From the NCBI RefSeq assembly GCF_003971255.1, contig NZ_CP034660.1:682001-746000 (forward strand): a stretch of DNA of 64,000 nucleotides, read 5' to 3'. This document shows positions 7,525 through 52,000 of this stretch, piece after piece. The first letter of the stretch is position 1, and each line of letters opens with the position of its first letter. The position numbers were made by a program, and so were the translations under genes. The stretch is from Colwellia sp. Arc7-635. Its GTDB lineage: Bacteria; Pseudomonadota; Gammaproteobacteria; Enterobacterales; Alteromonadaceae. Below the pieces are notes generated by a model. The model searched no databases. It was given only the letters and a program-made list of their open reading frames with translations, and was not told the DNA's origin.

Positions 7525-7836
7525 ATACCCGCTCCACTTCAAAATGCAGATTTCAGTAAGTCGATAATGGGTTAGCACCAAGGCATTGATTGAAGGGTAT
7601 AGTTCTTCTATTATCGAAATCAATAACGCTGGAGATGACCCGTTATCGACTTACCCGCAGGGCGCTATGCTAGAAAATCAGTCCTACGTTGCATACATGG
7701 ATGTATGTACTTAGCTTTTGCCTGGAGCAAAAAAGCTGTGCATACTTGATAAGGGAGTGACCATTATCTGCGTATCGCGCCTTGATCTGAATTCCTAGCT
7801 TAGCGCTGAAACTGCATCTTGAAGTGGAACGGGTAT
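7525..7836 (+). repeat. Palindromic MITE-like element, copy 1 (312 bp, module A only)
   Basis: The element is bounded by imperfect inverted repeats (ATACCCGCTCCACTTCAA at 7525; mirror image ending GGGTAT at 7836) next to TA dinucleotides. Inside are two stems: GTCGATAATGGGTT pairs with GACCCGTTATCGAC, and GCGCTATGCTAG pairs with CTAGCTTAGCGC. Relative to the 264-bp copies it carries one extra block of about 49 bp (7694-7742) next to TGCA, itself hairpin-rich. It lies in the 646-bp space (7301-7946) between divergent ppaC and the S9 peptidase gene. Apart from the promoter regions expected there, I see nothing else in that gap. No protein in it is convincing. Confidence 0.85.
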
Positions 7837-7946
7837 AGCTATGTTAGCTATTGAAATAATACTTATTAAATCAGTTCAATAGCGTATGAATTTTATATTT
7901 TAACAACTGCTGATATGGCAATGGCAGTTTTATTTTTGAGGAAGCT

Positions 7947-10028
7947 ATGTTTAAACTTAAATCCTTAGTGGCATTAATATCGTTAGCGAGTGTGAGTTCA
8001 TTCGCCAGTAATGTCATTACTATCGAAGATATTCCAAATATTAAATCAGTCCGCAGTAGTGTGATCAGCCCTAGTGGCGATCATGTCGCATTCACTCGCA
8101 CGCTGCCAAGAGAATTATATGTTGATAAGAATGGCGCTAACTATAACGAACTATTAATTACTGACAGTAAAGGCAACACCAAACCTTTTATAAGCGGTAA
8201 AGTTAATGTTGGCGCTTTGGAATGGTCTGTAGATGGTAAGTTTGTTTATTTTTTAGCGAAGTTTACTGGTGATAAGTTTACTCAGCTTTATCGCATTCCT
8301 GTTAATGGTGGTGAACGTCAGAAGGTTTTAGGTTTAAAAGAAACCTCGATCAGCCGTTATGACATTAGCCCTGATGGTAAGCAAGTTGCGCTGTTAGCTA
8401 TGCCGGCGAAAGATAAGTCAGAAAAGAAACTTAAAGAACTTGGCTTTAAAGCTGAAGTTTATGAAATGGACTTAAAAAACAAGCAATTGTTTGTGACTGA
8501 TTTAACCGTACAAAATAAGCCTGCTGTTTTATCGGCAGTGAATATCGCCGGCTATGTTAGTGATATGAATTGGTCTGCAGATAATCAACAATTGTTAATT
8601 AAAACCCAGCCGACGGCGTTAGTTGATGACTTGTACACCAAAGCTCAGTGGCATGTTATGCACTTAGCTGATCAGAAAGTAACAATGTCAATTGCCACTG
8701 AAGGTAAGTTAGGTACAGCGGAGTTTTCTTATAATGGTAAACATATTGCCGTTATTGGTGCGCAGGATAAACACGACCCTGCGACAGGGCGCTTGTATTT
8801 AGCTGATGTTAAGTCTGGTGAAATTAAAGATTGGCTACCTAACTTTGCTGGCCATGTTAGCGATATAGAATGGTCACATAAAAGCACTAAACTGAATTTT
8901 ATCGCTAATATCGGTACTGAAAGTATTGTTGCTAGCATTAAACCCGGCAGTAATCGTTATAACACCCAAGTTAAAGCGGGCAAGATTATAGCGTCGTCAT
9001 TATCTATTTCAGATTCAGATAAAACCTTATCTGTAAAAGGTCATACCGCTTCGCACCCGAATGAAAGCTTTATGGTTCGTGGTAAAAAGCTGACTAAAGT
9101 GACTAATTCTAATCCATGGTTGCAAGACAAGCGTTTCGCTAAGCAAGAATCTATTACCATGAAAGCACGTGATGGCGTGGAAGTGGGTGGAATTTTAGTT
9201 TATCCATTAGATTATAAAGAAGGTCAACGTTACCCGCTGATCATGCAAGTACATGGTGGCCCAGAAAGTCATGAAAAAAATGGTTGGGTAACTGCTTATT
9301 CTAAGCCCGGTCAAATGGGTGCAGCGCGTGGTTATGCGGTATTTTATCCAAACTATCGTGGCTCAACAGGTAAAGGTGTTGAGTATTCTAAATTAGGTCA
9401 AAACGATTATGCTGGCGCAGAGTTTGATGACTTGGTCGATATGAAAAATTACCTAGTTGATACTGGCTTAGTTGACGTTAAACGTGTGGGTATTACCGGT
9501 GGCTCATACGGAGGTTATGCTTCTGCTTGGGCGGCGACTAAATTGACTGAACATTTTGCCGCTAGTGTTATGTTTGTCGGTATTTCAAACCAACTATCTA
9601 AATTTGGTACTACGGATATCTCTAACGAAATGCACTTAGTACATGCGCGCTCTTACCCTTGGGATAAATGGCAATATTATTTAGAGCGTAGTCCTATTTA
9701 CTGGGCGCATCAGTCAAAAACGCCGTTATTGATTATGCATGGTAAAGATGACCCTCGCGTACATCCAGCACAATCAATGGAAATGTACCGTTATATGAAA
9801 GTACAAGGCAAAGATGTGCGTTTAGTATATTACCCAGGCGAAGGTCATGGTAACCGTAAAGCCGCGGCACAATATGACTATAGTTTACGCTTGATGCGTT
9901 GGATGGATAACTACTTAATGGATGGTAATAAAGCAATGCCTGACTATAAGCTAGATCATAAAGCCAAGTTAGCGGCTAAAAAAGCCTTAGCTAAAAATAA
10001 TGCTGACAGTAAAGATAACGACGAATAA
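7947..10028 (+). CDS. Secreted S9 family prolyl oligopeptidase-type peptidase
   Basis: The 693-residue protein begins with a signal peptide (MFKLKSLVALISLASVSSFA), so it is periplasmic or exported. The N-terminal half (about 25-400) is a beta-propeller of WD40-like/TolB-like blades with repeated S-x-D-G-K patterns. The C-terminal half is the alpha/beta hydrolase domain: nucleophile S520 in GGSYGG, D602 in GKDDPRV and H634 in GEGHGN form the catalytic triad. It resembles dipeptidyl/acylaminoacyl peptidases that cleave short peptides, often after Pro or Ala. The ATG has a GAGGAAG Shine-Dalgarno. The lysine-rich, charged C-terminus after about residue 660 looks disordered. It is a single gene with its own terminator. 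Confidence 0.9.
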   Translation: MFKLKSLVALISLASVSSFASNVITIEDIPNIKSVRSSVISPSGDHVAFTRTLPRELYVDKNGANYNELLITDSKGNTKPFISGKVNVGALEWSVDGKFVYFLAKFTGDKFTQLYRIPVNGGERQKVLGLKETSISRYDISPDGKQVALLAMPAKDKSEKKLKELGFKAEVYEMDLKNKQLFVTDLTVQNKPAVLSAVNIAGYVSDMNWSADNQQLLIKTQPTALVDDLYTKAQWHVMHLADQKVTMSIATEGKLGTAEFSYNGKHIAVIGAQDKHDPATGRLYLADVKSGEIKDWLPNFAGHVSDIEWSHKSTKLNFIANIGTESIVASIKPGSNRYNTQVKAGKIIASSLSISDSDKTLSVKGHTASHPNESFMVRGKKLTKVTNSNPWLQDKRFAKQESITMKARDGVEVGGILVYPLDYKEGQRYPLIMQVHGGPESHEKNGWVTAYSKPGQMGAARGYAVFYPNYRGSTGKGVEYSKLGQNDYAGAEFDDLVDMKNYLVDTGLVDVKRVGITGGSYGGYASAWAATKLTEHFAASVMFVGISNQLSKFGTTDISNEMHLVHARSYPWDKWQYYLERSPIYWAHQSKTPLLIMHGKDDPRVHPAQSMEMYRYMKVQGKDVRLVYYPGEGHGNRKAAAQYDYSLRLMRWMDNYLMDGNKAMPDYKLDHKAKLAAKKALAKNNADSKDNDE

Positions 10029-10113
10029 CGTTATACCTAATTTTGTCTTTACGCTTTATTTACTGTGCTTTAAGCCTTAAAAAACGCTTTTAGCACAGTA
10101 AAAATGACACAAT

Positions 10114-10150
10114 AAAAAGCCCGATATTCTTATGAATATCGGGCTTTTTT
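10114..10150. terminator. Bidirectional intrinsic terminator (S9 peptidase / cydB)
   Basis: The strong stem GCCCGATATTC/GAATATCGGGC with a TTAT loop is flanked by A5 and T6, between the convergent S9 peptidase and cydB genes. The GCCCGA...TCGGGC core recurs in the groEL terminator and at 40049. Confidence 0.93.
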
Positions 10151-10222
10151 CTGCAGGAGACAAAGTTTGTTGTGACCATATAGCTATAAAAAAGAAACTA
10201 GCACTTAAGTTAGTTTTTTAGC

Positions 10223-11239
10223 TTAGTAATTTAGCTTAGTCGTTTTACCCCAAAATACTTTATAAGAGAAGATGGTGTAGCCGATAATCATCGGTAGTAC
10301 GACCGCCGCGCCAACAAAGATAATCCATAATGATTCACGAGCACTTGCAGCCTCAAATATCGTGACTTTAAAAGGTACAATATAAGGGTAAAAGCTGTAC
10401 GCCAAACCACAAAAGCACATAATAAACAGGATGATCGCCGCTAAGAACGGAAACCAACAACCGGTATCATTTTTCATTGGTACTTTATTGAGATATAAAT
10501 GTACGGTGATAAAGGTGAAACCGAGCAAGAAAGTAATTGGAATTAACACTAATACTTGAATACCACCCAACCATTTATCCATGATCTGTTGATCAATCAA
10601 TAAGTTGGTTATACATACCGCAATAATGCCAACTGCCATTAAGATGTTGGTCAGTTTTGCCCATTTTGCCGCTCGACGTTGTAACTCGCCTTCTGTTTTC
10701 ATGACCAACCAAGCTGCGCCAATGAAACAATAGCCGGCCGTAACACAAATGGCTGATAAGGCAGAAAAACCAATACTTAACCAAGTATCTTCGAAGGACG
10801 TGATATAACGACCCAGCATATAACCTTGTGAAAGGGTCGCTAACAGGGAACCAAATTTGAAGGCATAATCCCACTTTTTCTTGTCAGCACTCGGTGCTTT
10901 AGTGCGAAAGTCGAATGATACCCCGCGTAAAATTAGCCCCGCTAACATTAGTGCCGTAGGTAAATATAAGGCTTGGAATATTATGGAGTGTGCCTTGGGG
11001 AAAGCAATCAGCAATAAACCGATAGCCATCACTAACCAGGTTTCGTTAGCATCCCAAAAGGGTCCGATAGAGTAGATCATACTATCGCGCTGTTGCTGAT
11101 TATCTAATGGTAGCAGCACTCCTACGCCCAAATCATAGCCATCTAATATGGCGTAAATTAAAAAAGAAAGTCCCATTAAACCAACAAAAACAATGGGCAA
11201 CCAATCTACAGGCACGCTATTCACTATTTCGGCGTTCAT
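10223..11239 (-). CDS. cydB: Cytochrome bd-type quinol oxidase subunit II
   Basis: The 338-residue protein has about eight to nine helices and the CydB family opening FLIYAILDGYDLGVGVLLPL, then IGPFWDANETWLVMAIGLLLIAFP. CydB stabilises CydA and forms the pseudo-symmetric heterodimer that reduces oxygen to water using quinol. Its start overlaps the end of cydA by four bases (ATGA-type coupling). The roughly 70 bp between its stop and the terminator cannot hold a normal cydX, so no small third subunit is encoded here. Confidence 0.93.
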   Translation of the reverse strand: MNAEIVNSVPVDWLPIVFVGLMGLSFLIYAILDGYDLGVGVLLPLDNQQQRDSMIYSIGPFWDANETWLVMAIGLLLIAFPKAHSIIFQALYLPTALMLAGLILRGVSFDFRTKAPSADKKKWDYAFKFGSLLATLSQGYMLGRYITSFEDTWLSIGFSALSAICVTAGYCFIGAAWLVMKTEGELQRRAAKWAKLTNILMAVGIIAVCITNLLIDQQIMDKWLGGIQVLVLIPITFLLGFTFITVHLYLNKVPMKNDTGCWFPFLAAIILFIMCFCGLAYSFYPYIVPFKVTIFEAASARESLWIIFVGAAVVLPMIIGYTIFSYKVFWGKTTKLNY

Positions 11240-12651
11240 TGTTTTTCTCCTGTATTAATTCTGACGTGTTCGGCTTGATTACTTTCAATAATTGGTACAT
11301 TAGCGCTTACTGTAGTGTTCGGTTGCTCTAGTATCACGGCACGATTTGCCATGACAAATAGCGTGCGAATATAGGCAATTAATAGAAAGCCATAAATAAC
11401 CAAGTACAAAGTTAAAGACATGGCTATGTTTTCAGGTGCTGTGGTGGTTACTGCGTCTTTGGTACGTAGTATTCCGCTAACTAAATAAGGTTGGCGGCCA
11501 ATTTCAGTGACATACCAGCCTGCCAAAGTGGCCAACCAACCAGAAAATGTCATGGCAATACCTGTTTTTAATAACCAAGGTGGGTAGCGCTTTTTGATGA
11601 CATATTGATAGGTGGCCAACCAAGAGAATATAAACATTAACACGCCAATACCTATCATGACCCGAAAGCTGAAAAAGATAGGAGCCACTGGCGGATGTTC
11701 GCCCATAAAGTCATTGAGTCCTTTTATCTCACCTTCTGCGTCGTGAGTTAAAATGATGCTAGCTACGTTCGGTACTTTTACTTCGAAGCTATTGTCTCGC
11801 GTTTTTTCACTTGGTATGGCAAATAATAATAACGGCACACCAGTGTCGGTTTCCCAAACACCTTCCATGGCTGCAATTTTTGCTGGCTGATGCTTTAACG
11901 TATTTAGCCCGTGTAAATCGCCAACAAAAATTTGCATTGGGATTAAAATAGCGGCTAATGTCACTGAAAAATTTAGCGCTTGTTTTACTGACTTTTTATT
12001 GTCGCCTTTGAGCAGGCGGTAAGCTGAAATACCAGAAATTAAGAATGCCGATGTTAAGCCTGAAGCGAGTAACATGTGCGTTAAACGATATGGCATAGAC
12101 GGGTTAAAAATAACCTCGAACCAGCTAGTAACGTGGGCAACACCATCGATCATTTCAAATCCGGCTGGCGTTTGCATCCAAGAGTCGAGTGATAATATCC
12201 AAAAAGCTGATAGGGTTGTGCCAAATGACACGAGCACCGTGGCGATGGTGTGAACGCGGTTTGACACTCGGTCCATACCAAAAAGCATAATCGACAAGAA
12301 TGAAGCTTCTAAAAAGAAGGCTGTCATCACTTCATAACCGAGTAATGGTCCTGCGATATTCCCGACGGTTTCCATATAGCCGGGCCAATTGGTTCCGAAC
12401 TGAAATGACATCGTAATGCCACTCACGACTCCAATGGCAAAAGTTAAGGCGAATATTCGCACCCAAAAGCGGTACACACGTAACCAACTTTCATCTTGTG
12501 TTTGGTTATAGCGCACTTTAAAAAATAACAATATCCAGCATAAAGCGATATTGATGGTAGGAAATAAAATATGAAAACTAATATTGGCAGCAAATTGGAT
12601 GCGTGAAAGCATGAAACTTGTGTCATTAGCGATAGCTGCTGCATCTAACAC
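11236..12651 (-). CDS. cydA: Cytochrome bd-type quinol oxidase subunit I (short Q-loop)
   Basis: The 471-residue inner-membrane subunit binds the haems. Visible landmarks are the haem b595 His in RIQFAANISFHILFP, the Glu pair in GYEVMTAFFLEASF, the b558 His in LTHMLLASG, the quinol-loop motif QPAKIAAMEGVWET, and the region EIGRQPYLVSG. E. coli CydA is about 522 residues; the missing length is in the Q-loop, placing this with short-loop, CIO-like oxidases. The conserved GRQPW appears as GRQPY. It is cotranscribed with cydB and probably with the upstream regulator gene 107 bp away. Confidence 0.93.
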   Translation of the reverse strand: MLDAAAIANDTSFMLSRIQFAANISFHILFPTINIALCWILLFFKVRYNQTQDESWLRVYRFWVRIFALTFAIGVVSGITMSFQFGTNWPGYMETVGNIAGPLLGYEVMTAFFLEASFLSIMLFGMDRVSNRVHTIATVLVSFGTTLSAFWILSLDSWMQTPAGFEMIDGVAHVTSWFEVIFNPSMPYRLTHMLLASGLTSAFLISGISAYRLLKGDNKKSVKQALNFSVTLAAILIPMQIFVGDLHGLNTLKHQPAKIAAMEGVWETDTGVPLLLFAIPSEKTRDNSFEVKVPNVASIILTHDAEGEIKGLNDFMGEHPPVAPIFFSFRVMIGIGVLMFIFSWLATYQYVIKKRYPPWLLKTGIAMTFSGWLATLAGWYVTEIGRQPYLVSGILRTKDAVTTTAPENIAMSLTLYLVIYGFLLIAYIRTLFVMANRAVILEQPNTTVSANVPIIESNQAEHVRINTGEKQ

Positions 12652-12758
12652 GGGATGTACTCCATTTTATGAATTGGGTAAGTTAAGTGGTTCAAATCGT
12701 GCTTTGTAGTGTTTTTTTTCGTCTGGTATAAAGTAAAACGTTGGTAATAAATTACCGG

Positions 12759-13301
12759 TTATCTCAGTAATAATTTATCTTTAACGTCCAATATCTTACT
12801 AATACCTTCACCAAGTTTGAGTAAGGCTGATAGCTTTTCTGATGACATACCTTGCATTTCATTTGTCCACAGCGTCACCATTTCCATTAAATCGTGCATC
12901 TGTTTAACCCGCATTTGTGTATATTCATCAGATTCATTGCTGGGTTGTTCCATTAAAGCATCACGCAGGGTCGTTAATGTTGGATCTAATTCGCGTTTTC
13001 TTCGCTCGACCACTAATGTACGAGCAATCTCCCAGATATCACTGGGTGCTGAAAAGTATTCTTTTCTATCGCCAGGAATATGATGTAGTTTAATGAGATT
13101 CCAAGATTTAAGTTCTTTCAAACCCATGCTGACATTCGAGCGTGATATTTGTAGTGCTTCACTGATTTGATCGGCATTAAGCGGCGCTTCGGTTAGTACA
13201 ATAACCGCGTACATTTGTCCTAATGTCCGGTTTAGTCCCCAACGAGAGCCCATTTCACCAAAATGTAAAACGAGTGATTGTGTCATCGGTGTAATTTTCA
13301 T
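12759..13301 (-). CDS. GbsR/MarR family transcriptional regulator
   Basis: The 180-residue protein has a winged helix-turn-helix at about residues 30-90 (QISEALQISRSNVSMGLKEL followed by a wing) and a helical dimerisation C-terminus. The opening FGEMGSRWGLNRTLGQMYAVIVL is typical of GbsR-type members of the MarR superfamily. It lies immediately upstream of cydAB on the same strand, which suggests it controls the oxidase, itself, or both. The ligand is unknown. There is no strong Shine-Dalgarno, so translation may be modest. Confidence 0.82.
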   Translation of the reverse strand: MKITPMTQSLVLHFGEMGSRWGLNRTLGQMYAVIVLTEAPLNADQISEALQISRSNVSMGLKELKSWNLIKLHHIPGDRKEYFSAPSDIWEIARTLVVERRKRELDPTLTTLRDALMEQPSNESDEYTQMRVKQMHDLMEMVTLWTNEMQGMSSEKLSALLKLGEGISKILDVKDKLLLR

Positions 13302-13399
13302 CTTTGCTGTCCCTTAAATTTCTTTTGTATTTTCTGTATGTTTTGTATTTTCAGTAATTAGTGAAAATTGTAATCTTTTTCTGATCTAAGTCAAGCTTT

Positions 13400-13415
13400 T
13401 GTGACTTTTATCACT
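13400..13415. promoter_or_regulatory. Candidate CRP-like operator upstream of the GbsR-cydAB operon
   Basis: TGTGA, six bases (CTTTTA), then TCACT forms a near-palindrome matching the CRP half-site pattern, 99 bp upstream of the GbsR gene start. Regulation of a terminal oxidase by a CRP/FNR-family protein would be sensible, but one site by eye is weak evidence. Confidence 0.35.
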
Positions 13416-13496
13416 TTTGAAAGGGTGACTACTAGGGAGTTCTCAGGAGCACTTTTAGCTTGTGAGCAGGTTGCGGGAATATTTAGGGGGAAAATG

Positions 13497-13522
13497 AAAA
13501 TGGCTACGAAAGTAGCCATTTT
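13497..13522. terminator. Possible weak bidirectional terminator
   Basis: The perfect stem AAAATGGCTAC/GTAGCCATTTT with a GAAA loop lies just outside repeat copy 2. It is downstream of the chemoreceptor gene on the minus strand, so it may end transcription that crosses the repeat. The U-tract is only four bases. Confidence 0.5.
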
Positions 13523-13539
13523 AAATATTAATAGATTAT

Positions 13540-13900
13540 ATACCCGTTCCACTTCAAGATGCAGTTTCAGAGCTAAGCTAGGAATTCAAGCCAAGGCGCG
13601 ATACGCGGATAATGGTCATTCCCTTATCAAGTATTGCACAGCTTTTTTGCTCCAGACAAAAGCTAAGTACATACATCCATGTATGCAACGCAGGATTGAT
13701 TTTCTAGCATAGCTCCCTGCGGGCAAGCCGATAACGGGTCATCTCCAGCGTTATTGATTTCGACAATAGAATAACTATTCTCGGCTCTGGCATCCTGCTT
13801 CGCTCTACCTTCACCATCCATGGTTTCGTCTTCAATCAATGCCTTGGTGCTAACCCGTTATCGACTTGCTGAAATCTACATTTTGAAGTGGAGCGGGTAT
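13540..13900 (-). repeat. Palindromic MITE-like element, copy 2 (361 bp, modules A and B)
   Basis: Termini are ATACCCGTTCCACTTCAAG at 13540 and its mirror ending GGGTAT at 13900, in inverted orientation relative to copy 1 and of the same subfamily. It contains both optional blocks: A at 13639-13687, bordered by TGCA, and B at about 13783-13831. It ends seven bases before the stop codon of the chemoreceptor gene. With the hairpin at 13497 and the CRP-like site at 13400 it fills most of the 606-bp gap 13302-13907. A plus-strand reading frame at 13401-13712 runs into the element and is not credible. Confidence 0.85.
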
Positions 13901-13907
13901 AGTATAA

Positions 13908-15446: not shown

Positions 15447-15654
15447 ATTTTCATCATCCTTATGAAAAAGAGTCTGATAGCAAATTTATCGCGACACTAT
15501 AGGTGATATTAATCACATTTAATAGCGTTTGCCTTGGTAAAATGTTATCAAATTGTAAACGAGTATTCTTTTGCTAAACAGAAGGTTAGGTTATTATTTG
15601 TAAATTTTTCTTAACTAAAGACATGCATTGCTAACAAGATTATAGTCTCTTAGC

Positions 15655-15685
15655 AAAAAAAACACCTGAAATTGTCAGGTGTTTT
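15655..15685 (-). terminator. Intrinsic terminator downstream of fbp
   Basis: The stem ACACCTGA/TCAGGTGT with an AATTG loop and a run of A on its left reads as a hairpin followed by a U-tract for minus-strand transcripts leaving fbp. Confidence 0.85.
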
Positions 15686-15726
15686 CTAGGAGTAACTAAA
15701 TATGGAAGGATTAAATAGGGCAGAGT

Positions 15727-16695: not shown

Positions 16696-16714
16696 CGGGT
16701 TACCTAGTTACTTT

Positions 16715-16740
16715 AGAGTAATACTCTTACAATAAGAGTA
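16715..16740. promoter_or_regulatory. Palindromic half-site array upstream of fbp (candidate operator)
   Basis: Three half-sites alternate in orientation: AGAGTA (16715-16720), TACTCT (16722-16727) and AGAGTA (16735-16740). The last two form TACTCTTA-CAA-TAAGAGTA. The array lies 20-45 bp upstream of the fbp start, overlapping where its promoter or leader should be. The binding protein is unknown. Confidence 0.45.
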
Positions 16741-20572: not shown

Positions 20573-20594
20573 AATTGTCTCTTAGCCAGTTGGT

Positions 20595-20858
20595 ATACCC
20601 AAGCCACTTGAAGGTGCAGGATTCAGCAAGTCGAGAAAGGGTTAGCATCAAGGCATTGATTGAAGAAAATGGTTGTTCCATTGTCGAAATCAATAACGCT
20701 GGAGATGACCCTTTATCGCCTTGCCCAAAGGGAGCTAAGCTAGAAAAGCAGATCCGCGTTGCAGCACTTGATAAGGGAATAACCATTATCTTCGTACTGC
20801 GCCTTGACCTGACTTCCTAGCTTAGCTCTGAAACTGCATTTTCAAGTGGTTTGGGTAT
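20595..20858 (+). repeat. Palindromic MITE-like element, copy 3 (264 bp, minimal form)
   Basis: The element runs from ATACCCAAGCCACTTGAA to a mirror end GGTTTGGGTAT, bordered by TA on both sides. It shows the two internal stems (GTCGAGAAAGGGTT with GACCCTTTATCG; GGAGCTAAGCTAG with CTAGCTTAGCTC) and no optional blocks. It belongs to the second subfamily (CCACTTGAA termini). It occupies most of the 420 bp between the divergent EamA and MocR genes and lies 22 bp from the EamA start. Confidence 0.87.
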
Positions 20859-36679: not shown

Positions 36680-36719
36680 TAGATTTTTAATCTATAATTG
36701 AAGCTCTAACCATCTAAGG

Positions 36720-36751
36720 AAAGCCCGAATAGTAATATTCGGGCTTTTTTA
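36720..36751 (+). terminator. groESL intrinsic terminator
   Basis: The stem AAAGCCCGAATA/TATTCGGGCTTT with a T6 tail lies 41 bp past the groEL stop. A near-identical copy sits at 40049-40081. A smaller hairpin, TAGA/TCTA around TTTTTAA, directly follows the stop codon. Confidence 0.93.
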
Positions 36752-36961
36752 TTACCTGCTTATCAATATCTAATAACACTTTTGTTATGAATTGGTATTG
36801 GGTAATGAAGTGTATCTTCCCGTCAAACATAAGAATGACTGAATATTTATTGTCAGCACTTTATGTCATTAACATAAAATGCCTAACCGCCATAAATACC
36901 TAATTAACAAAGCTTAAATAAATATATAGGTATCAATGTGATATTACTTTCATATTGTTAA

Positions 36962-39980: not shown

Positions 39981-40081
39981 TATATGGGCGATATGATGTA
40001 AAAATAGAGTTTTTAACTCTATTTTTGTGTGATTCAAATCATTAAACGAAAGCCCGAATAGCAATATTCGGGCTTTTTTTT
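39981..40081 (+). pseudogene. Relic of a groEL 3' end with orphan terminator
   Basis: Codons reading Y-M-G-D-M-M-stop (39981-40001) resemble the GroEL ending G-M-G-G-M-M-stop. They are followed by a small hairpin around TTTTTAA (as after groEL) and then, 48 bp after the stop, a terminator almost identical to the groEL one: AAAGCCCGAATA at 40049, the reverse arm, and T8. No plus-strand gene ends here, so the terminator is an orphan. The alignment upstream of the last few codons is poor; the terminator similarity is the strong part. The hairpin may also help end the minus-strand gene at 40130. Confidence 0.5.
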
Positions 40082-40129
40082 AACGAATTAAAATACACTT
40101 TCTAGTTAGTAATTTAATTTATAGATTGT

Positions 40130-42588: not shown

Positions 42589-42615
42589 AAATATTTCCTT
42601 AGTGTGGGTCAGTAT

Positions 42616-42879
42616 ATACCCAAACCACTTGAAGATGCCGTTTCAGAGCTAAGCTAGGAAATCAGATCAAGGCGCAGCACGAAGACAAGGGTTATTCCCT
42701 TATCAAGTGCTGCAACGCGGAGCTGGTTTTCTAGCTTAGCTCCCTTCAGGCAAGGCGATAAAGGGGTATCTCCGGCGTTATTGATTTCGACAATGGAACA
42801 ACCATTCTCCTCAATCAATGCCTTGGTGCTAACCCTTTCTCGACTTGCTGAATCCTGTATCTTCAAGTGGCTTGGGTAT
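42616..42879 (-). repeat. Palindromic MITE-like element, copy 4 (264 bp, minimal form)
   Basis: The element runs from ATACCCAAACCACTTGAAG at 42616 to GGCTTGGGTAT at 42879, with TATA on each side. It shows the two internal stems (GAGCTAAGCTAG/CTAGCTTAGCTC and the AAAGGG/CCCTTT arm). It is in the same orientation as copies 2 and 5. Its right end overlaps the 3' end of the oxidoreductase gene: the stop codon (42863-42865) and the last five sense codons lie inside it. Confidence 0.88.
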
Positions 42880-44908
42880 ATAACTCTAAAACAAGGTGGT
42901 CAGTGCCTTTTGCAGGTACGGCGCAGCAGATGAGCACTTCGTTTTCAGCAATGTCAGCACTTGGTTCTGTTCTATAAGTAACGGTGCCGGCGTGTAGCTT
43001 AACTGCACATGAGCCACAATTGCCGCTCCGGCAGCTGTAAGGTGGTGACAGTCCTTGCCCTTCGGCTAACTCTAATAGCGTCGCACCGCCTTTATGCCAT
43101 TGCTGCTTAATGCTGGCGTCGCGAAATTCTACTATCGATGTTTCAGCCTCTTCAGCCATGTCATTTTGAAGAGTTATGCGCTTTAAAGTTGAAGGACCAA
43201 ACGTTTCGGCAAAAATGTCTTTATCGGCAACGCCGAGCTCAAGCAAGATGTCATACATCGCTTGCATAAAGCTTTCAGGGCCACATAAAAAGTAATCGCT
43301 TGCCAGAATTACCTCTAGGCTTCTCATACTTTCTAATAAGGTTTGTTTGGAAATTCTTTTGCCAATAACGGGGTAATAAGCAATGCTTTTATCCGTCGTC
43401 GACTCTAATTGCTTGAAGTGATCATAGAAAGCAAGTTGTGCTTTTGTTTGAGCCGAATGAAATATATTAATGGGTCTTGTATAGCGTGTTCTAATACCTT
43501 CGACATAACTTTGCTGCGCCATTGAAATCATCGGTGTGATACCTACACCACCGGCTAATAACACCGCAGGTCGCTTGACTGAGGTGTCTAGCCAAAAATT
43601 TCCTTGCGGGAATTTCGCTTCAATAAGTTCGCCAATAGCTAGCTTATGGTGTAAATGTAATGATGCTAGACCGTGCTTTTGGCGCTTTACTGAAATGCGA
43701 TAAAGCCCATCATGTGGCGAACTCGATAATGTATAATTACGAATAAGCCAATTGTTTTTATTCGCTATCACTGAGCTATTACCTAAATTGTTTTTTAAGC
43801 GAATAGTTAAGTGTTGGCCTGCTTTAAAAGGCACAAGTTCGCCTTTATCGTGTTTTTCTAGATAAAAGGATCGAATGTCAGTTGTTTCATCAATGATCTT
43901 AACGATCCTAAATGAATGCCACATACTCGACTGTTTTTGTGCCAATTCAAGTTGTTTAGCTTGCGCCCAATCACCGGTTAACAATGAGTTTGGTGAGTAT
44001 TCGACTAGGCTGGCTCTGAAAGGTAAGGCATTTTTAATACTCAGTCCTTGCTCGACAATAAATTGCCAACCGCGCTCTGCACCTTTGAATGAATGAAGCA
44101 GAGGGTCATGTTCTGACAGTATTGCTACTCGTCCAGATAGGAATAATAAATCACCGGTTTCAAAGTCAGGGAAGAGTAAGCCTGCCTTCGGATTTAGTAA
44201 GAAGTTGCCCATGGTATTAAAGAAATTGTTGCCAGCGTAATCAGGGATGGTCAGGGTATTGCCATCTACAGCGACAAAACCTGATTTTCCGCCACGATGC
44301 GATACGTCTACGCCTTCGACATTTTGCGTATTTTTGGTGTTAACAGCGCTAGCGACAAAAAAAGTGTCGGACTGGGAAATTACGCTTTTTGCATCACTAT
44401 CTAATGTTTTAAAATACGTTTTTTCCGCTGTTACATTGTCAACTTGACGAAAGTCACGCGTTTGAATGTACTGTGGACAATTACCAAATGACTGATCGAC
44501 TTTAACGCTAAAGCATTGTTCTGTAACGGCTGTTATTCGCGCATTTAAGCGGTTTCGTCTTCGCGTTGGTATTTCAATGCCCAAAAAGCCTAATGGCCGA
44601 CCAAGTTTTAGTGAGCTTGATAAAGGATCGCCAGTGATCGGTGTGGCTTTAATATCTAGGCTGGTAGGTGTTGTGGAATTCATAAAACCAGGTGAACCCG
44701 GTAAAATAGAGGCCCAAGGTCTGCCTGCTTCGTCGACGCTACCAACAACAACAAAAGGCAGTTTGGCAAAAAAGTCACGGTGTTGCTCAGGCAAGTAGGA
44801 ACGAATAACTTTGCGGCCAATAGTCGCCATTGCATCGGCTTTGCCCACTCGCTGTTGCATGGCTTTTTCACCTGAATGAAAAGGTGATTTTTCTGATGCA
44901 TTAGACAT
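42863..44908 (-). CDS. PNPOx-like / flavin reductase / 2Fe-2S ferredoxin fusion oxidoreductase
   Basis: The 681-residue protein joins three modules. Residues about 30-300 form a pyridoxamine-phosphate-oxidase-like FMN domain (FVVVGSVDEAGRPWASILPGSPGF). Residues 330-570 form an FAD/NAD(P)H ferredoxin-reductase domain (AGQHLTIRL, RNYTLSSSPHDGLYRISVK, LLAGGVGITPMISMAQ, YFLCGPESFMQAMYDIL). Residues 595-681 form a plant-type ferredoxin with the cluster motif CRSGNCGSCAVKLHAGTV. It probably passes electrons from NAD(P)H via flavin and iron-sulfur to an unknown acceptor. The C-terminal five residues (YTQAT) and the stop come from repeat copy 4. It is preceded by a GST gene, and both face a LysR gene. 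Confidence 0.9.
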   Translation of the reverse strand: MSNASEKSPFHSGEKAMQQRVGKADAMATIGRKVIRSYLPEQHRDFFAKLPFVVVGSVDEAGRPWASILPGSPGFMNSTTPTSLDIKATPITGDPLSSSLKLGRPLGFLGIEIPTRRRNRLNARITAVTEQCFSVKVDQSFGNCPQYIQTRDFRQVDNVTAEKTYFKTLDSDAKSVISQSDTFFVASAVNTKNTQNVEGVDVSHRGGKSGFVAVDGNTLTIPDYAGNNFFNTMGNFLLNPKAGLLFPDFETGDLLFLSGRVAILSEHDPLLHSFKGAERGWQFIVEQGLSIKNALPFRASLVEYSPNSLLTGDWAQAKQLELAQKQSSMWHSFRIVKIIDETTDIRSFYLEKHDKGELVPFKAGQHLTIRLKNNLGNSSVIANKNNWLIRNYTLSSSPHDGLYRISVKRQKHGLASLHLHHKLAIGELIEAKFPQGNFWLDTSVKRPAVLLAGGVGITPMISMAQQSYVEGIRTRYTRPINIFHSAQTKAQLAFYDHFKQLESTTDKSIAYYPVIGKRISKQTLLESMRSLEVILASDYFLCGPESFMQAMYDILLELGVADKDIFAETFGPSTLKRITLQNDMAEEAETSIVEFRDASIKQQWHKGGATLLELAEGQGLSPPYSCRSGNCGSCAVKLHAGTVTYRTEPSADIAENEVLICCAVPAKGTDHLVLELYTQAT

Positions 44909-44979
44909 ATTGGCCTCAAATTTCGTTAAATACTCTTAAATGACTGAGCGGATAAATACTGTGCGATTAAGCGGTTAAG

Positions 44980-45603: not shown

Positions 45604-45668
45604 GATTAATTCCTTGAGATTGGGTAGGTAAAGTTGCTCGTTGTCTTGTGAGTTAAATAGTAGAGCTA

Positions 45669-45688
45669 ATGTTGTGTGTAGACAATAT
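45669..45688. promoter_or_regulatory. Candidate LysR operator in the GST/LysR intergenic region
   Basis: ATGTTGT (45669) and ACAATAT (45682-45688) form an inverted repeat with one mismatch, and ACAATATG recurs at 45712-45719, 30 bp downstream. The layout (inverted site plus a second half-site in a divergent promoter) fits LysR-type control of the GST-oxidoreductase genes. Confidence 0.35.
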
Positions 45689-45762
45689 GGTGAAATATAG
45701 AATTACTATGTACAATATGTTCATAAAGGTGGCACTAACCACAATCAAAAAGAGTAATCGTG

Positions 45763-46668
45763 ATGGACACCATTGATGGCATGCGCACTTTTGTTGCTGT
45801 GGCTAAGCAAAAGTCATTTACTAGCGGTGCTAAACTTATTGGCATTAGCACGAAACTGGCCAGCAAATACATTGGCCAGCTAGAAGAAAGGCTTGACGCA
45901 CAGCTGTTTCATCGTACAACGCGTAGTGTGACATTAACGGAAACAGGGCAGGCTTACTTTCTCAAATGTGTACCGGTATTAGAGCAATTTGCTGAACTTG
46001 AAGATGTTGTTCAGCAGGGGCAGTCTGAACTTGCTGGCGTGATAAGAATAACCGCACCGACCGGCTTTGGTAGCACTAAACTGGTTGAGGCGTTAGCTCC
46101 CTTTCAAAAAATGCACCCGAAAGTGAGTATCGATATGCGTTTGTCTGACCATATTGTCAGCATAGTGGATGAAGGAATTGACTTAGCTATTCGCTTTGGC
46201 AAATTAGAAGACTCAACCATGATCGCCAGAAAGCTTATGGATATGCGTATTGTCGTATTTGCTTCACCAGATTATTTAGCTGAATTTGGCAGGCCGAAAC
46301 ATCCGAGCGCTTTATCGACTCATAACTGTCTTTTACAACAGTTTAGTATTGAACCTCATCATTGGCAGTTTAAAATTGCTGGCGAGATGAAGTCTTATCC
46401 GGTGGTGGGCTCGTATAGTGCAAACTCACCTCGTGCCGTTGCTCACATGGCGGCTGCTGGATTAGGAATTGGCGCGGCCCCAGCGTATGTGGTGGAGTCG
46501 TATATAAAAGAGGGCTCGTTAACGTTATTATTTGAAGATAACGAGGCACGCATTATTCCGTTGCATGCGGTATACCCGTCGGGCAGGCATTTACCTAAAC
46601 GCATTCGAGCATTAATAGAGCATTTAGCTATGGTGTTTAAAGCGTCTTCGCTTGGGCCGAGAAACTAG
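45763..46668 (+). CDS. LysR family transcriptional regulator
   Basis: The protein of about 301 residues has an N-terminal LysR helix-turn-helix (MRTFVAVAKQKSFTSGAKLIGISTKLASKYIGQLEERL) and a periplasmic-binding-protein-like effector domain (about 90-295). It is divergent from the GST-oxidoreductase pair, the classic layout for a LysR protein and its target. I chose ATG 45763, one codon after a GTG, with GAG eight bases upstream. The effector is unknown. Confidence 0.9.
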   Translation: MDTIDGMRTFVAVAKQKSFTSGAKLIGISTKLASKYIGQLEERLDAQLFHRTTRSVTLTETGQAYFLKCVPVLEQFAELEDVVQQGQSELAGVIRITAPTGFGSTKLVEALAPFQKMHPKVSIDMRLSDHIVSIVDEGIDLAIRFGKLEDSTMIARKLMDMRIVVFASPDYLAEFGRPKHPSALSTHNCLLQQFSIEPHHWQFKIAGEMKSYPVVGSYSANSPRAVAHMAAAGLGIGAAPAYVVESYIKEGSLTLLFEDNEARIIPLHAVYPSGRHLPKRIRALIEHLAMVFKASSLGPRN

Positions 46669-46826
46669 AACGCTAAATGTTTTTGGTGCCTTACCTGTTG
46701 CTCAGGCGAATATAGAAAAAGAATAGGTTTTAATTAAAATTGTCGAGTAATAACGTAACTGAATAACTAAAGCTCTTAACTAAAATACTTTAGTGAACTA
46801 ATATCCATAAACATTAATTCCGCTCA

Positions 46827-46866
46827 TAAAAAAACTAGCTATGCATTAAGCAAAGCTAGTTTTTAT
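46827..46866. terminator. Intrinsic terminator between the LysR and cytochrome genes
   Basis: AAAAACTAGCT and AGCTAGTTTTT form an 11-bp stem with a 13-base loop, between a convergent pair of genes. The rest of the 281-bp gap 46669-46949 shows nothing else. Confidence 0.8.
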
Positions 46867-46949
46867 CAGTATTATCAACGGCAATATTATAACGAGTTGA
46901 TTAATTTCTATTTATTTTTTCTCATAAAAAAGTAGAACAGATAATTAAT

Positions 46950-49676
46950 CTAATGCGTTTTATTTATATCCTCTGGTGTTATTTCAGCATCAGGTTTAGT
47001 GCGTTGAATATTTTCATATTTAGTCGCTTTAACCTGAGCTGGATCAGCCATTTGGTCAATGTATTTTTGGGCAACGCTAGCATCAATAACTTTTTTACCT
47101 TGATGTTGGACGTTATAGCGAGATAAATAAAACCAAATATCCTTTGCTTGAAAGTCTTTAATGACTTCGCCTTTTTGTGATTTGGCGTAGTTATCTTTAA
47201 AGCCATCGCTTTGCACATAACTGACTAAGCGCTTGATTTCGTCTTTGGTCAATGTACCGCCAACTTCATCACCATTACCTATGCCGAAGGCTGGCATAGA
47301 GGCAGTAGGGTTGCCCGAATAAACGAAACCTTCCATCGCTGCTGCAGGATATTCCATAAAGTTCTTCAAAGGCTTACCGTCAATACCTTCGCCATTTTGA
47401 CCATGGCAAAGCATACAGTTTGCTTCAAAAATTTGCTTACCCGTTAGGTTGTGTTGCGTACCTTTACCAATGAGTATCGGTTTTGAAGGCTGCAAAGGAA
47501 TGCGCGAGCCATCAGTACGTATTAAGTCGTCTCGTTTTACTAAACCGGTAGCATTTGGATTAAACAGCGCCAATTGTGGTGCCTGTTTAAGTGCAGGATG
47601 CTGTGCTATCGAAAAGTTCATCGCAACGTTTTTAACATTTTCACCTTGGTGAATATCACCTTCAATTGCATCGAATACTGCGTTTGAACTTGCGCCTAGG
47701 TTTATTTTTACTTCACCAGACATTACTGGAGCTGCACCATACTCACCATGAGCAGCACTTACATAAGGAATGCCATCAGCATCGTCATCACCGTTACCAT
47801 AGCCAGTAAATATTTCACCCGTTGATTGATGCTCAGATAATAATAATCCACTTTGATTAACGGTTTGAACCCACCAACGAGTCATGTGCTCTACTTGGTC
47901 TTCTAATAAGTAGCTCGGTGTTGTGAACATTATTTCGCGTAAAGCCGCCATAGTAATACCAACAGAATAAGGCGTAATGGTGGCAATATCGTTATTTAGC
48001 TCACTACGATAAACCCCATCTCTTACTTGCCAGTAGTTTTTGTTGACATGGTTATATGCTTTTCGAGCTGCGACTAAGTATTTATCGTCACGACTTGAAT
48101 AATACGCGGCAATTAGTGCGCGAATAGCTTCAAACTGTGACGTGCCGATATCGCGTTGACCATTAGCTTGTCCTGAGGTGCTATAACTGCTGTTAAAACT
48201 ACCGTTAGTATTTTGCACTTTAACTAAAAAGTTAGCGTTATTAACTAATAATACTTTTGCTTGCTCAACAAGTTCAGGCTTGCGCCCCATGCTCTGCCAA
48301 GATTGCGCCATATCATTAACTGCCACCATTGCCATGGCCATATCTTTTAAGGTAATGCTTGAGCCTTTACCTTCTTCAGGATGCCATTGAGAAACAAGAA
48401 TGTTGTTATCAGTATGCATTGCTTGAATATTTTTAAACACGGCATTGCCAATTGACTCAGCAAGTAAACCGGTACGCTTTTCAACTAAACCACCATCTAC
48501 CGGTGGATTATCAGTAAAAAAGTCACCACGACGGTCTGCTGCTACAGCATAAGCGGAAGTTGCCCATACCCATGATGCTTGATCCCATAACTGGCTGCTA
48601 GCGTCTTGCATGTCCATTGCCCAAACACGCTCAGGAATGTCACCAACCCATAATAAGTTTGGTTTTATTTCATGCGGTAAGTACTTAAAGCCATCTTTAG
48701 GATCATAAGTTTCGGTGTTAAGGCCAATGAGTTTTTCACCATCAGTAAACATTGATGACTTCACTTGTAACATGGCGTTTAACGCACTCATGGTTAAGCC
48801 CCAGCCGCGCATGCCTTCTTCAGCGTCATTACCGAGTAATGATACTTCTTTATGCTTCGATATATGCGTGGTACCGGTATGATTTGCTTGAAAGAATCGG
48901 TCTAACCATTGTGAACGGCGTTTAACAAATTGGCCGATAGCGCCTAAGTTAAACGTGGTGTCCATTTCTCCATGATCAAAGCGCTGCGGTAAGTCGTTAA
49001 AGTAGGTGTTAGGTACTCCCCAACCTCCTTTTTTACCACTAATAGGATCATCAAAGCTGTCGGTGTTATCTAATTTACCGGTAAAAAATGGTTGTACTGA
49101 TTTATATTGTAAGTAGGTTGGTTGAATATCATCAAAAACGCGAGGAAAACCAGTTCGCTGATAAACCAAAGGTAATTCCATACCTAATAAAATGTCTTTA
49201 TTTGAGAAGTTTCTTTCACCTCGGTCACGTAATAACTTATTGAACTGACTATGTTTTTCAGCTTTTATGCTAAAGTAAGGGCCATGCACCATATGGACAC
49301 CCGAATGACTACGTCCACCAATATAATCAAGTAAGTAGCGAGCATAAAAGTACATTTCACGGGCAGTCACCCATTGAAACGCTCTTTTATAAGCGACAGG
49401 AAAGCTTGCTTTAACCATATCGTTATAGCCTTCCATACCTGTTTTATAACCTTCATTTGCCATGAAAGTCGCTTCATTAGTATAAAAAGTACGATCAATG
49501 ATCTTACTGTTAATCTTCGAACGGTACTGCGATAAGTCAGGTTGTGAGAAGCCCCCTTTAATGGCTACGGTACGCTGGTCTGAGGTTAATATATAATTTT
49601 TCGCAATCGCCTGAGTGATGAATGCACAGGTAATTGAGATACAAAGTGTTTTGACGATAAATTTTTTATTTTTCAT
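46950..49676 (-). CDS. Exported six-hairpin-like protein with C-terminal cytochrome c domain
   Basis: The 908-residue protein begins with a signal peptide (VKTLCISITCAFITQAIA). I do not recognise the N-terminal 350 residues (YFYARYLLDYIGGRSHSGVHMVHGPYF). Residues about 400-650 have helical repeats like alpha/alpha-toroid enzymes (GSFNSSYSTSGQANGQRD, QFEAIRALIAAYYSSRDDKYLVAARKAYNHV). A c-type cytochrome domain follows, with the haem site CMLCHGQNGEGIDGKP at about residue 754 and a Met ligand candidate in ASMPAFGIGNGDEVGG. It is therefore probably a periplasmic enzyme with its own electron carrier. The 19-bp gap to the outer-membrane protein gene upstream indicates cotranscription. The substrate is unknown. 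Confidence 0.75.
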   Translation of the reverse strand: MKNKKFIVKTLCISITCAFITQAIAKNYILTSDQRTVAIKGGFSQPDLSQYRSKINSKIIDRTFYTNEATFMANEGYKTGMEGYNDMVKASFPVAYKRAFQWVTAREMYFYARYLLDYIGGRSHSGVHMVHGPYFSIKAEKHSQFNKLLRDRGERNFSNKDILLGMELPLVYQRTGFPRVFDDIQPTYLQYKSVQPFFTGKLDNTDSFDDPISGKKGGWGVPNTYFNDLPQRFDHGEMDTTFNLGAIGQFVKRRSQWLDRFFQANHTGTTHISKHKEVSLLGNDAEEGMRGWGLTMSALNAMLQVKSSMFTDGEKLIGLNTETYDPKDGFKYLPHEIKPNLLWVGDIPERVWAMDMQDASSQLWDQASWVWATSAYAVAADRRGDFFTDNPPVDGGLVEKRTGLLAESIGNAVFKNIQAMHTDNNILVSQWHPEEGKGSSITLKDMAMAMVAVNDMAQSWQSMGRKPELVEQAKVLLVNNANFLVKVQNTNGSFNSSYSTSGQANGQRDIGTSQFEAIRALIAAYYSSRDDKYLVAARKAYNHVNKNYWQVRDGVYRSELNNDIATITPYSVGITMAALREIMFTTPSYLLEDQVEHMTRWWVQTVNQSGLLLSEHQSTGEIFTGYGNGDDDADGIPYVSAAHGEYGAAPVMSGEVKINLGASSNAVFDAIEGDIHQGENVKNVAMNFSIAQHPALKQAPQLALFNPNATGLVKRDDLIRTDGSRIPLQPSKPILIGKGTQHNLTGKQIFEANCMLCHGQNGEGIDGKPLKNFMEYPAAAMEGFVYSGNPTASMPAFGIGNGDEVGGTLTKDEIKRLVSYVQSDGFKDNYAKSQKGEVIKDFQAKDIWFYLSRYNVQHQGKKVIDASVAQKYIDQMADPAQVKATKYENIQRTKPDAEITPEDINKTH

Positions 49677-49695
49677 TATTATGCTCTTTCCTGGC

Positions 49696-51183
49696 TTAAA
49701 GAATCGTACTGATAGAAAAACGGAAAATTGATTCAGGTGCAGGACCTAAATCAGGTTCAATAACACGAAAGAGTGTTGATAACGTAAAGCGAAGTTGAGG
49801 GTTTGGACTGAAAATTATAGAAGGAGCAATAAAGCCTGTTAAACCTCCAGAAAATCCAGGTCGATGCCCAACATCAAAAACAAAGGCTTCTTCGCCAACA
49901 CTGCCACAATTACTCACTACACCAATATCGGCGGCAATACAGGTATGAATTTCTGGCTCAGGAATGTTGCCTGAATACGTATCTTCTTCACGATCAAAAG
50001 CGATTAAACTTAAATCAAGAGAGAGGTAGTCTTTATAGATAGGCTTCACGAAAGAAGTGAAATAGGTAGTAATGTCACCGGGATCAATGCCATCACTTTC
50101 TGAGACAAACTTATGGCTAAAGCCACCATGTAGTGCGGAACGTCCTAGGAAACTATTAGCAGAAAACTGTTTGGTTAAAAATGCACCAACTAAGAAGCTA
50201 GTTGATCCGGTACCTGACTGTAAAATAGAAGGTAAACGGCCATCGGCAGAAAAACGACCAAAAACACCATTGTTAAACGGGAAATCGCCAACAAATGAAT
50301 TATCGAAATTTTGACCGCCAGGAGAGAAACTTTGCACGCCTAATGAAGGAGCACTAAAGGCGGGGTTGTTATTACACAATTCCCTATTATCAATATTAAA
50401 ATTCCTAAAGAAACAACGACCATCGCCCCAAGTGCCATTTTCTACATTGGCTCTTTGTACGGCATCAAAACCTTGCGCAGCTACGGTATTTGGTGGCTGA
50501 GGACGACGTGCACTGATTCGACCATTGCTACCAAAAGTGGCTTCATTACTGCCTGTTGGTAAAAATACCGCACCTACTACCGCTAAACCAAAACCGCTAT
50601 TGGCTTGATCCAGAACCTTTTTCTTTAAAAATATACCTACATCACCAATGTGAGAAGAGCTGCCTGCGTTTTCTAAACTGATAAATGATTGGCCGTTAGG
50701 ATTAATGGAGCCATTTGTTTCTACATTGCGATAAGGTAAATTAACTCGTAATGTAAAACTGTGTAGATATTTTTTATTTAAATCAAAGCCGTAAAAAAAA
50801 TCTAGATCTGATAATTGTCTGTTAACTTTAAAATTACTAAAAATATCAGTATTGGGATCGCCATCTTTAAAAAAGTCATTTCCATCAAGTGATAGATGAC
50901 GCTGAGAGAAATCTAACCGGAAGGAACCTGGTGGTAAAACATAGGCATGTTGAGTAACGGCAGGTGTTAACAACGGAGGAATAAAGGTTTTTATTTGATG
51001 ACCAATTTGCTTTCTGTCATGTACGTAAAAGTCATCACTGCCATAGATACTGTCTGCTGTACCAAGCGTGAGATAATCGTCAATGCTACTCTTTTTTACT
51101 TCTTCAGCATAAGTTGCTATCGGCGCATTTAATAATAATGCCAATAGCAGTTTTTGCTTGAATTTAAATTTTTTATGGTGCAT
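49696..51183 (-). CDS. Outer-membrane beta-barrel protein (transporter-like)
   Basis: The protein of about 495 residues has a signal peptide ending NAPIATYAEEV and many amphipathic beta strands, such as LDFFYGFDLNKKYLHSFTLRVNLPYR and GFGLAVVGAVFLPTGS, with a final strand ending in Leu (FRFSISTIL). It resembles outer-membrane proteins of aromatic/alkane uptake or the meta-pathway phenol type, but I cannot assign a substrate. ATG 51183 has AGGAT eight bases upstream, so I prefer it to the ATG two codons earlier. It is upstream of, and probably cotranscribed with, the cytochrome c gene. Confidence 0.72.
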   Translation of the reverse strand: MHHKKFKFKQKLLLALLLNAPIATYAEEVKKSSIDDYLTLGTADSIYGSDDFYVHDRKQIGHQIKTFIPPLLTPAVTQHAYVLPPGSFRLDFSQRHLSLDGNDFFKDGDPNTDIFSNFKVNRQLSDLDFFYGFDLNKKYLHSFTLRVNLPYRNVETNGSINPNGQSFISLENAGSSSHIGDVGIFLKKKVLDQANSGFGLAVVGAVFLPTGSNEATFGSNGRISARRPQPPNTVAAQGFDAVQRANVENGTWGDGRCFFRNFNIDNRELCNNNPAFSAPSLGVQSFSPGGQNFDNSFVGDFPFNNGVFGRFSADGRLPSILQSGTGSTSFLVGAFLTKQFSANSFLGRSALHGGFSHKFVSESDGIDPGDITTYFTSFVKPIYKDYLSLDLSLIAFDREEDTYSGNIPEPEIHTCIAADIGVVSNCGSVGEEAFVFDVGHRPGFSGGLTGFIAPSIIFSPNPQLRFTLSTLFRVIEPDLGPAPESIFRFSISTIL

Positions 51184-51576
51184 TTTCATATCCTAAAGAA
51201 TTTCTTTCTACTGATAGTGAAAAATTATTTTACGGATACCAAAAGTTATTTCTTAACAGAAATTTACGCATTCTATAAAGAAATCATCACAAAGATATCA
51301 CGTAAAAATGATAACTTTTTATGAAATAAAATATGAAATGTACGGTCAAGGCTATCAATTTTTGGTTTAATGAGAGGTGGCTAGCTAACTGTCAAAAACC
51401 TTGGTTTATATAATATTTTAATCTTGAAAGGATAATCAGCGTCGGTTTTTAAATTGTGCTGAGTAATAATTTATTTAACTATTTTATAATAAATTTTAAC
51501 TTCTTAACGCTCTTGCGAACGTAGCTTTGTAGTGTTTCATGGCGTTTAGTTAAAATCCCATACCAGCACTTAACTT

Positions 51577-51612
51577 GGCATTTATATTAGTATGCTCCTT
51601 AATATAAATGCC
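51577..51612. repeat. Perfect inverted repeat in the OMP/CTI gap
   Basis: GGCATTTATATTA (51577-51589) and TAATATAAATGCC (51600-51612) form a perfect 13-bp stem with a 10-base loop. No U-tract follows, so it is not a standard terminator; it could be an operator. It lies in the gap 51184-52008, which also holds repeat copy 5. Positions 51190-51570 are AT-rich with no gene that I can see. Confidence 0.6.
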
Positions 51613-51639
51613 AGTGGTCATTTTAAGCTTTAAACACCT

Positions 51640-52000
51640 ATACCTAAACCACTCGAAGATGGAGTTTCAGAGCTAAGCTAGGAAATCAGGTCAAGGCGCA
51701 GCACGAAGACAATGGTTATTCCCTTATCGAGTGCTGCACAGCTTTTTTGCTCCAGACAAAAGCTAAGTACATACATCCCTGTATGCAACGTGGAGCTGGT
51801 TTTCTAGCTTAGCTCCCTTCGGGCAAGGCGATAAAGGGTCATCTGTGGCATTATTGATTTCGACAATGGAACAACCATTCTCGGCTCTGGCATCCTGCTT
51901 CGCTCTACCTTCACCATCCATGGTTTCGTCTTCAATCAATGCCTTGGTGCTAACCCTTTCTCGACTTGCACAATCCTGCATCTTCAAGTGGCTTGGGTAT
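51640..52000 (-). repeat. Palindromic MITE-like element, copy 5 (361 bp, modules A and B)
   Basis: Termini are ATACCTAAACCACTCGAAG at 51640 and GGCTTGGGTAT at 52000, subfamily two. It has the same two optional blocks as copy 2: A at 51739-51787 and B at about 51883-51931. Its total length is identical to copy 2, although the termini belong to the other subfamily. It ends eight bases before the stop codon of the isomerase gene. Confidence 0.87.

Follow-up and report, generated by a model that had tools for sequence, protein, structure and literature searches.

The window analysed here is a stretch of 64,000 bp from Colwellia sp. Arc7-635 (contig NZ_CP034660.1, G000:C1:682001-746000), whose genome is a single contig of 4,741,350 bp. 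It contains five copies of a non-coding repeat, probably a miniature inverted-repeat transposable element (MITE). Measured from ATACCC to GGGTAT, the copies are 312, 361, 264, 264 and 361 bp long, and both their places and their lengths agree with the first-pass annotation, which had been made from the letters alone. The two optional blocks it described are real (Table 1). Module A is 49 bp and is tiled on TGCA, and module B is 48 bp and lies between GAAGA and GAGAA. The two terminal subfamilies are real as well: copies 1 and 2 have GCTCC/GGAAC ends, and copies 3, 4 and 5 have AAGCC/GGTTT-type ends. TA had been claimed for each junction. It is seen at nine of the ten, and the left junction of copy 1 is CA.

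Table 1. MITE copies in the window, with their modules and matches to the consensus of integration host factor (IHF)
Feature	Position	Strand	Description
MITE copy 1	7525..7836	+	312 bp, GCTCC/GGAAC subfamily, module A only
IHF-consensus match, arm 1 of copy 1	7579..7591	-	reads AATCAATGCCTTG on the - strand
Module A (49 bp) of copy 1	7692..7740	+	
MITE copy 2	13540..13900	-	361 bp, GCTCC/GGAAC subfamily, modules A and B
Module A of copy 2	13637..13685	-	
Module B of copy 2	13783..13829	-	47 of its 48 bp
IHF-consensus match, copy 2	13834..13846	+	
MITE copy 3	20595..20858	+	264 bp, AAGCC/GGTTT subfamily, no module
IHF-consensus match, copy 3	20649..20661	-	
MITE copy 4	42616..42879	-	264 bp, AAGCC/GGTTT-type ends, no module
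IHF-consensus match, copy 4	42813..42825	+	
MITE copy 5	51640..52000	-	361 bp, AAGCC/GGTTT subfamily, modules A and B
Module A of copy 5	51737..51785	-	
Module B of copy 5	51883..51929	-	47 of its 48 bp
IHF-consensus match, copy 5	51934..51946	+	

The repeat had been taken for a five-copy family, which is an undercount. Across the host genome, the left-end pattern has 73 matches (55 exact) and the right-end pattern has 81, while controls have none. The 83 fetched loci resolve into 85 places, 72 of which carry both end patterns and range from 164 to 520 bp. This total is a lower bound, with 40 of 135 initial candidates scored. Of the remaining 13 places, one shows a full copy already counted, and three or more (1175171, 1821889, and 4344825) do have two ends but are diverged or carry deletions. 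The 72 copies are dispersed across the genome on both strands. Sixty-two of them are within 1 bp of 264, 313 or 361 bp: 37 at 263–265 bp (34 at exactly 264), 19 at 312–313 bp and six at 360–361 bp. Three copies have two or three A units (374, 410, and 412 bp), one has four A units and one B (520 bp), and six are internal deletions (164, 190, 191, 191, 220, and 229 bp). Nine extra terminal-repeat matches were found in the host among 100 of 198 matches listed, and several of them are short palindromes or truncated copies. In a search for a transposase-bearing copy, the 2–7 kb stretches beside these nine showed no second inward end other than short palindromes and known copies; the open reading frames (ORFs) there were not searched by family. 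At one locus (L090, G000:C1:1648800-1652100), an apparent TATACCAA..TTGGTAT repeat adjoins a truncated copy. Perhaps this is a second MITE family of the host.

Between the TA pairs the element reads TACCC...GGGTA, and its terminal inverted repeats pair over 25 bp. Each element can fold as a three-way junction, in which the paired ends would form the stem from which two long arms emerge. The 264-bp form, taken from a window copy, gives a fold z of -10.65 as RNA, against dinucleotide shuffles, and of -9.61 as DNA; the structure is not a product of chance. The 361-bp form gives -7.25. The fold was compared with an alignment of 23 selected sequences of 264 bp (13 from the host, which has 34 such copies, and 10 from relatives; 21 distinct), in which 94.1% of cells pair. 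Changes on both sides are seen in 16 of 100 pairs, against a mean of 8.6 in shuffles, none of 500 reaching 16, and 3–4 in slid versions; the structure behind these counts came from one aligned sequence, and relatedness is not preserved in the shuffles. On inspection, the arms look like one hairpin (CAAGGC-stem-GAAGAnAATGGTTrTTCC-stem-AACGC) present twice, the two versions being inverted and diverged from each other. In a relative (L105), arm 2 contains a sequence that matches the loop of arm 1.

On its opposite strand, the arm-1 motif CAAGGCATTGATT fits the IHF consensus, WATCARNNNNTTR, in 67 of the 72 copies. The match lies in the core, outside A and B, and no copy has a second one. Its 13 bases rank third in conservation among all 13-base windows of the core and overlap the top two. 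A base-shuffled core contains such a match in 1.9% of cases. The exact 13-mer is present in 27 of 37 loci examined in relatives; these loci include four pairs that cover identical places, and six whose retrieval relied on a pattern overlapping the motif.

TA flanks 63 of the 72 copies on both sides; counted side by side, it is present at 67 left and 67 right junctions. Sites without the element are seen in relatives. The site of copy 4 is empty in genome G014, where it reads GTGTTTATAAATCTAAAAT, and the length fits a 2-bp TA duplication. At the same site, G003 has a remnant of about 45 bp consisting of the terminal repeats only. The site of copy 5 is empty in G003, with CTTTAAACATCAATACTAGTTTATC corresponding to CTTTAAACACCTA[element]TATACCGGTTTATC in the host, and the lengths are equal once the element and one TA are subtracted. 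G003 also lacks 5.3 kb upstream of this site. Judged from the spacing of matches, copy 1 is missing at the syntenic place in at least five of 16 relatives (G001, G003, G010, G013, and G015). Copy 2 is missing in six relatives in which the sequence was read (G003, G005, G008, G009, G010, and G014). Outside the window, the copy at genome position 808169 interrupts a stretch that is continuous in G011. The empty sites are consistent with insertion accompanied by duplication of TA.

The ends of the element resemble those of IS630 transposons. The IS630-type transposase domain PF13358 is present in seven of 17 genomes searched. A broken IS630 copy in G011 ends near TATACCCATCACACTTCAAGATGCAG, and this fragment, used as a query, has matches in 10 of 295 genomes of the same family. 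Among the ends compared, the closest belongs to locus L226. It ends with TATACCCATCCCACTTCAAGATGCAGATTTTAGCA, the element begins with TATACCCGCTCCACTTCAAAATGCAGATTTCAGCA, and the two agree at 30 of 35 bases, whereas 300 shuffles of one end gave 23 at most. For the remaining three element ends, the agreement with L226 is 26, 27 and 29 of 35 bases, and the IS630 end of L224 shares 29 of 35 with the element end. In five loci (L199, L225, L226, L227, and L230), the open frame of IS630 ends 18 bp inward from the outer end of the repeat. All five scanned frames match Pfam DDE_3 and the NCBIfam IS630 model, four of them over the cut-off of the latter and the G011 fragment under it. The same IS630 fragment is also carried by contig ends of G007 (L200, L204, L209, and others), as expected from a multi-copy insertion sequence (IS) breaking the assembly.

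The window had been said to hold no transposase. No IS630 transposase (PF13358) match is found in it or anywhere in the host genome at E 0.001, the window being unscreened for other transposase families. A resident IS630 partner was rejected on this result, and for the same reason the host copies look orphaned. The Tc/mariner-type assignment of the first-pass annotation is supported by the TA junctions, the dispersal, the empty sites and the transposase-bearing relatives with the same ends. The family has the properties of an IS630-derived MITE: ends shared with the transposon, insertion at TA with duplication, and a short length without its own transposase gene. It is probably a MITE of the IS630 (Tc1/mariner) kind, mobilised in trans by an IS630 enzyme.

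Each module has a fixed site, that of A being in arm 2 and that of B in arm 1. The 72 copies contain 37 of 43 A matches and eight of nine B matches in the host genome, and the other seven matches lie in one-ended or diverged copies. A is present in zero to four units per copy between conserved ends, and is tandem in four copies (2, 3, 3, and 4 units). The following statistics concern the 65 copies of regular length classes, 54 of which have cores of exactly 264 bp after module removal. The modules were suggested to be independent of the ends, and this holds genome-wide: by left end, A is present in 20 of 52 and 8 of 13 copies (Fisher p = 0.21), and B in 4 of 52 and 2 of 13 (p = 0.59). Cores only two differences apart can differ in A. 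On the core tree, A requires 21 changes, B four and the terminal subfamily two; in 2000 shuffles the means are 21.2, 5.8 and 12.0, and 1091, 18 and 0 shuffles, respectively, are as low. The subfamily is strongly clustered and B slightly so; A shows no visible signal of core ancestry and B shows some. The tree itself is weak, with 36 of 62 inner branches poorly supported.

Either module varies about as much inside a subfamily as from one subfamily to the other. In single-A copies, with two of 25 omitted for unequal length, the larger subfamily shows 2.6% divergence in A and 5.6% in the core, the smaller one 1.0% and 11.5%, and comparisons between the two give 2.0% and 17.4%. In the six copies with B, B divergence is 4.3% within the larger subfamily and 4.0% between subfamilies, and the cores differ by 6.2% and 16.2%. 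We infer that two precise hairpin cassettes of 48–49 bp are gained and lost irrespective of the remainder of the element.

Taken together, the repeats are very likely non-coding MITEs with 25-bp terminal inverted repeats, which would be moved in trans by an IS630 (Tc1/mariner) transposase and whose modules A and B turn over. The element would insert at TA and duplicate it. Modules could be lost by slippage between short flanking repeats, as A tiles on TGCA, and multiplied by the same slippage. Gain may occur by short-tract gene conversion from other copies or by the capture of hairpin repeats of a similar kind. The host seems to have lost the source transposase, so the copies may now be decaying, in many cases to a short palindrome made of both ends.

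Several facts weigh against this scenario. The host itself has no match to the IS630 transposase. The closest IS end among those compared (L226) comes from another genus, and the reading frame there is broken into two parts; the longer IS630 frames (L227 and L230) have less similar ends. The flanks of the copy at 808169 fit a TA duplication only with extra changes. The limits of the pair counts given above and the slight clustering of B point in the same direction. Given the poor resolution of the core tree, gene conversion among cores may account for part of the scatter of A. One of the copies omitted from the A distances (391309, smaller subfamily) has a visibly diverged A, as the absence of exchange would predict.

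A possible, though unlikely, alternative is that the 361-bp form is ancestral and that modules have only been lost, many times independently, by slippage, without gain or exchange. The modules are both rich in hairpins, and TGCA repeats border A. Forms with deletions are frequent, among them six of the 72 copies and the short end-to-end palindromes. B without A is found only in two copies (4398159 and 1821889), both of which have lost arm 2, the seat of A, and one A of the G subfamily is diverged. However, A and B are about as alike between subfamilies as within them, although the cores differ about threefold more. Tandem A exists, and A-like units stand alone in relatives.

A-like units without a detected core, some of them in tandem, are seen in relatives at L109, L111–L114, L116 and L118, and B-like units of this type at L115 and L116. 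At L118 (G027:C1:3163468-3166518), in another genus, the A-like unit lies in a longer intergenic stretch that looks structured. A strong B-like unit in L121 scores 66, against a shuffled maximum of 44, and on inspection is enclosed by another repeat, one with TACCAAT ends. In L094, a second unit like B is found at a different hairpin (score 80, shuffled maximum 44). B-like cassettes at other sites in L108, L136 and L110 are not claimed, their scores not exceeding the shuffled maximum. CAAGGCATTGATTGAAGA, an exact 18-mer that misses diverged copies, is present in 47 of 295 genomes of the same family and in 14 of 52 genera, the matches in other genera not having been inspected singly; controls have none among the matches listed.

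The exact 29-base pattern of the core-to-B junction is found in six stretches, all from Colwellia (two genomes; named genomes were searched, possibly without the host's own). All six loci (L092–L097) fetched by it carry the junction, and five of them have the left end TACCAATTCCAATAA. These ends indicate that the cassette and its junction are common to families with different ends. Any one of three processes would account for this sharing of B: recombination of one family with another, capture, or independent mobility. The ends of this second family share 16 exact bases with the IS630 end L198, at a 26-base score of 20, equal to the shuffled maximum. This likeness is kept as a lead. It can be speculated, with rather low confidence, that A and B are hairpin cassettes with their own mobility, which enter fixed acceptor points in the MITE arms, leave without a scar, occur alone or in tandem between genes of related genomes, and are shared by two MITE families with different terminal repeats. 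The MITE would then be a scaffold exchanging parts with a larger pool of hairpin repeats.

It is quite improbable that the element is instead a conserved structured RNA, such as an mRNA stability or terminator unit, and not a DNA transposon. The very stable fold (z of -10.65) and the both-side changes in 16 of 100 pairs are what such an RNA would show. Against it stand the insertion at TA, the IS630 ends, and the absence of any Rfam match in the window at gathering scores. Flanking ORFs, called mechanically for 69 of the 72 copies, are oriented ++ in 25, -- in 18, +- in 14 and -+ in 12, with no clear preference. The near-pairs in the stems, 93 G-U and 67 A-C cells, are not far apart in number. 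A strand-specific RNA role is not supported by orientation or near-pairs, and both favour a DNA element without a fixed RNA role. Segmental duplication or tandem debris of one locus, to which five copies within 45 kb of the window could point, is almost certainly wrong: the 72 two-ended copies are spread over 4.74 Mb on both strands and relatives have sites without the element. Both findings that the first-pass annotation named as refuting it, an origin in one tandem or segmental duplication and a lack of further genomic copies, are thereby contradicted.

Some other features of the window were observed. The ORF at 42863–44908, beside copy 4, ends inside the MITE, which may therefore provide its stop codon. 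Two 51-bp stretches (36705–36755 and 40034–40084), 84% identical and 3.3 kb apart, have a terminator-like hairpin (AAAGCCCGAATA..TATTCGGGCTTTTTT). A 43-bp direct repeat (3223–3265 and 4753–4795; 72% identity, 1530 bp apart) lies within a long open frame (2962–6243) and is possibly an internal protein repeat. A 3.8-kb block of G003 (L168, G003:C1:3244765-3248578) is 94% identical to window positions 763–4575, compared with 80–88% for other G003 blocks close to the window MITE copies. A recent transfer of this block between G003 and the window genome is possible.

The family can be compared with known small repeats, as these are described in parts of the cited papers; RUP, BOX and Correia/NEMIS come closest to it. 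RUP of Streptococcus pneumoniae is a 107-bp MITE with the ends of IS630-Spn1 and TA targets (PMC2229807, PMC3049150). Like RUP, the Colwellia family is small and non-coding, targets TA, shares its ends with an IS630-family transposon and has about 100 copies. RUP is described as a simple repeat, whereas the Colwellia family has a 264-bp core with two cassettes, and its partner IS was not found in the host. BOX of S. pneumoniae consists of boxA and boxC with a varying number of boxB (PMC3049150). The Colwellia family works like BOX: the ends are conserved, and the tandem modules between them vary in number through gain and loss. It is likened to BOX by organisation and not by sequence, and is not filed as a member: BOX is tied to ISSpn2 (PMC3049150), the Colwellia family to IS630, with two cassettes at separate sites, one per arm.

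Correia elements of Neisseria (NEMIS, CREE) are about 105–107 and 155 bp long, and a 50-bp block holds their IHF site (PMC2229807, PMC2649163). Discrete length classes set by an optional block of 50 bp and an IHF site are thus seen in both families. The site is inside the optional block in Correia, whereas the match in Colwellia is in the constant core, its most conserved stretch, in 67 of 72 copies. The Colwellia elements are also longer and have two arms as well as two optional blocks. BrickBuilt of Porphyromonas gingivalis is similarly a MITE, one containing a minisatellite (PMC4596501; named in PMC10969869), and by its description differs in host and repeat. SonMITE_1 of Shewanella oneidensis (PMC10969869), known here by name only, is a MITE of a marine-type gammaproteobacterium of the same broad group and may be related to the Colwellia family.

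No published description of the family was found among the top matches of an open-access literature search at the level of titles and abstract beginnings. From its sequence, the family appears to combine traits of RUP, BOX and Correia in a new host group, with the IHF match in the core. The modularity of BOX and the IS630 link of RUP would thus be joined in one family of a marine bacterium, with many copies, empty sites in relatives and a likely transposase lineage. It may serve as a natural system for measuring how often hairpin cassettes are lost, multiplied or exchanged, and for asking if the movement of a MITE is aided by an IHF site.

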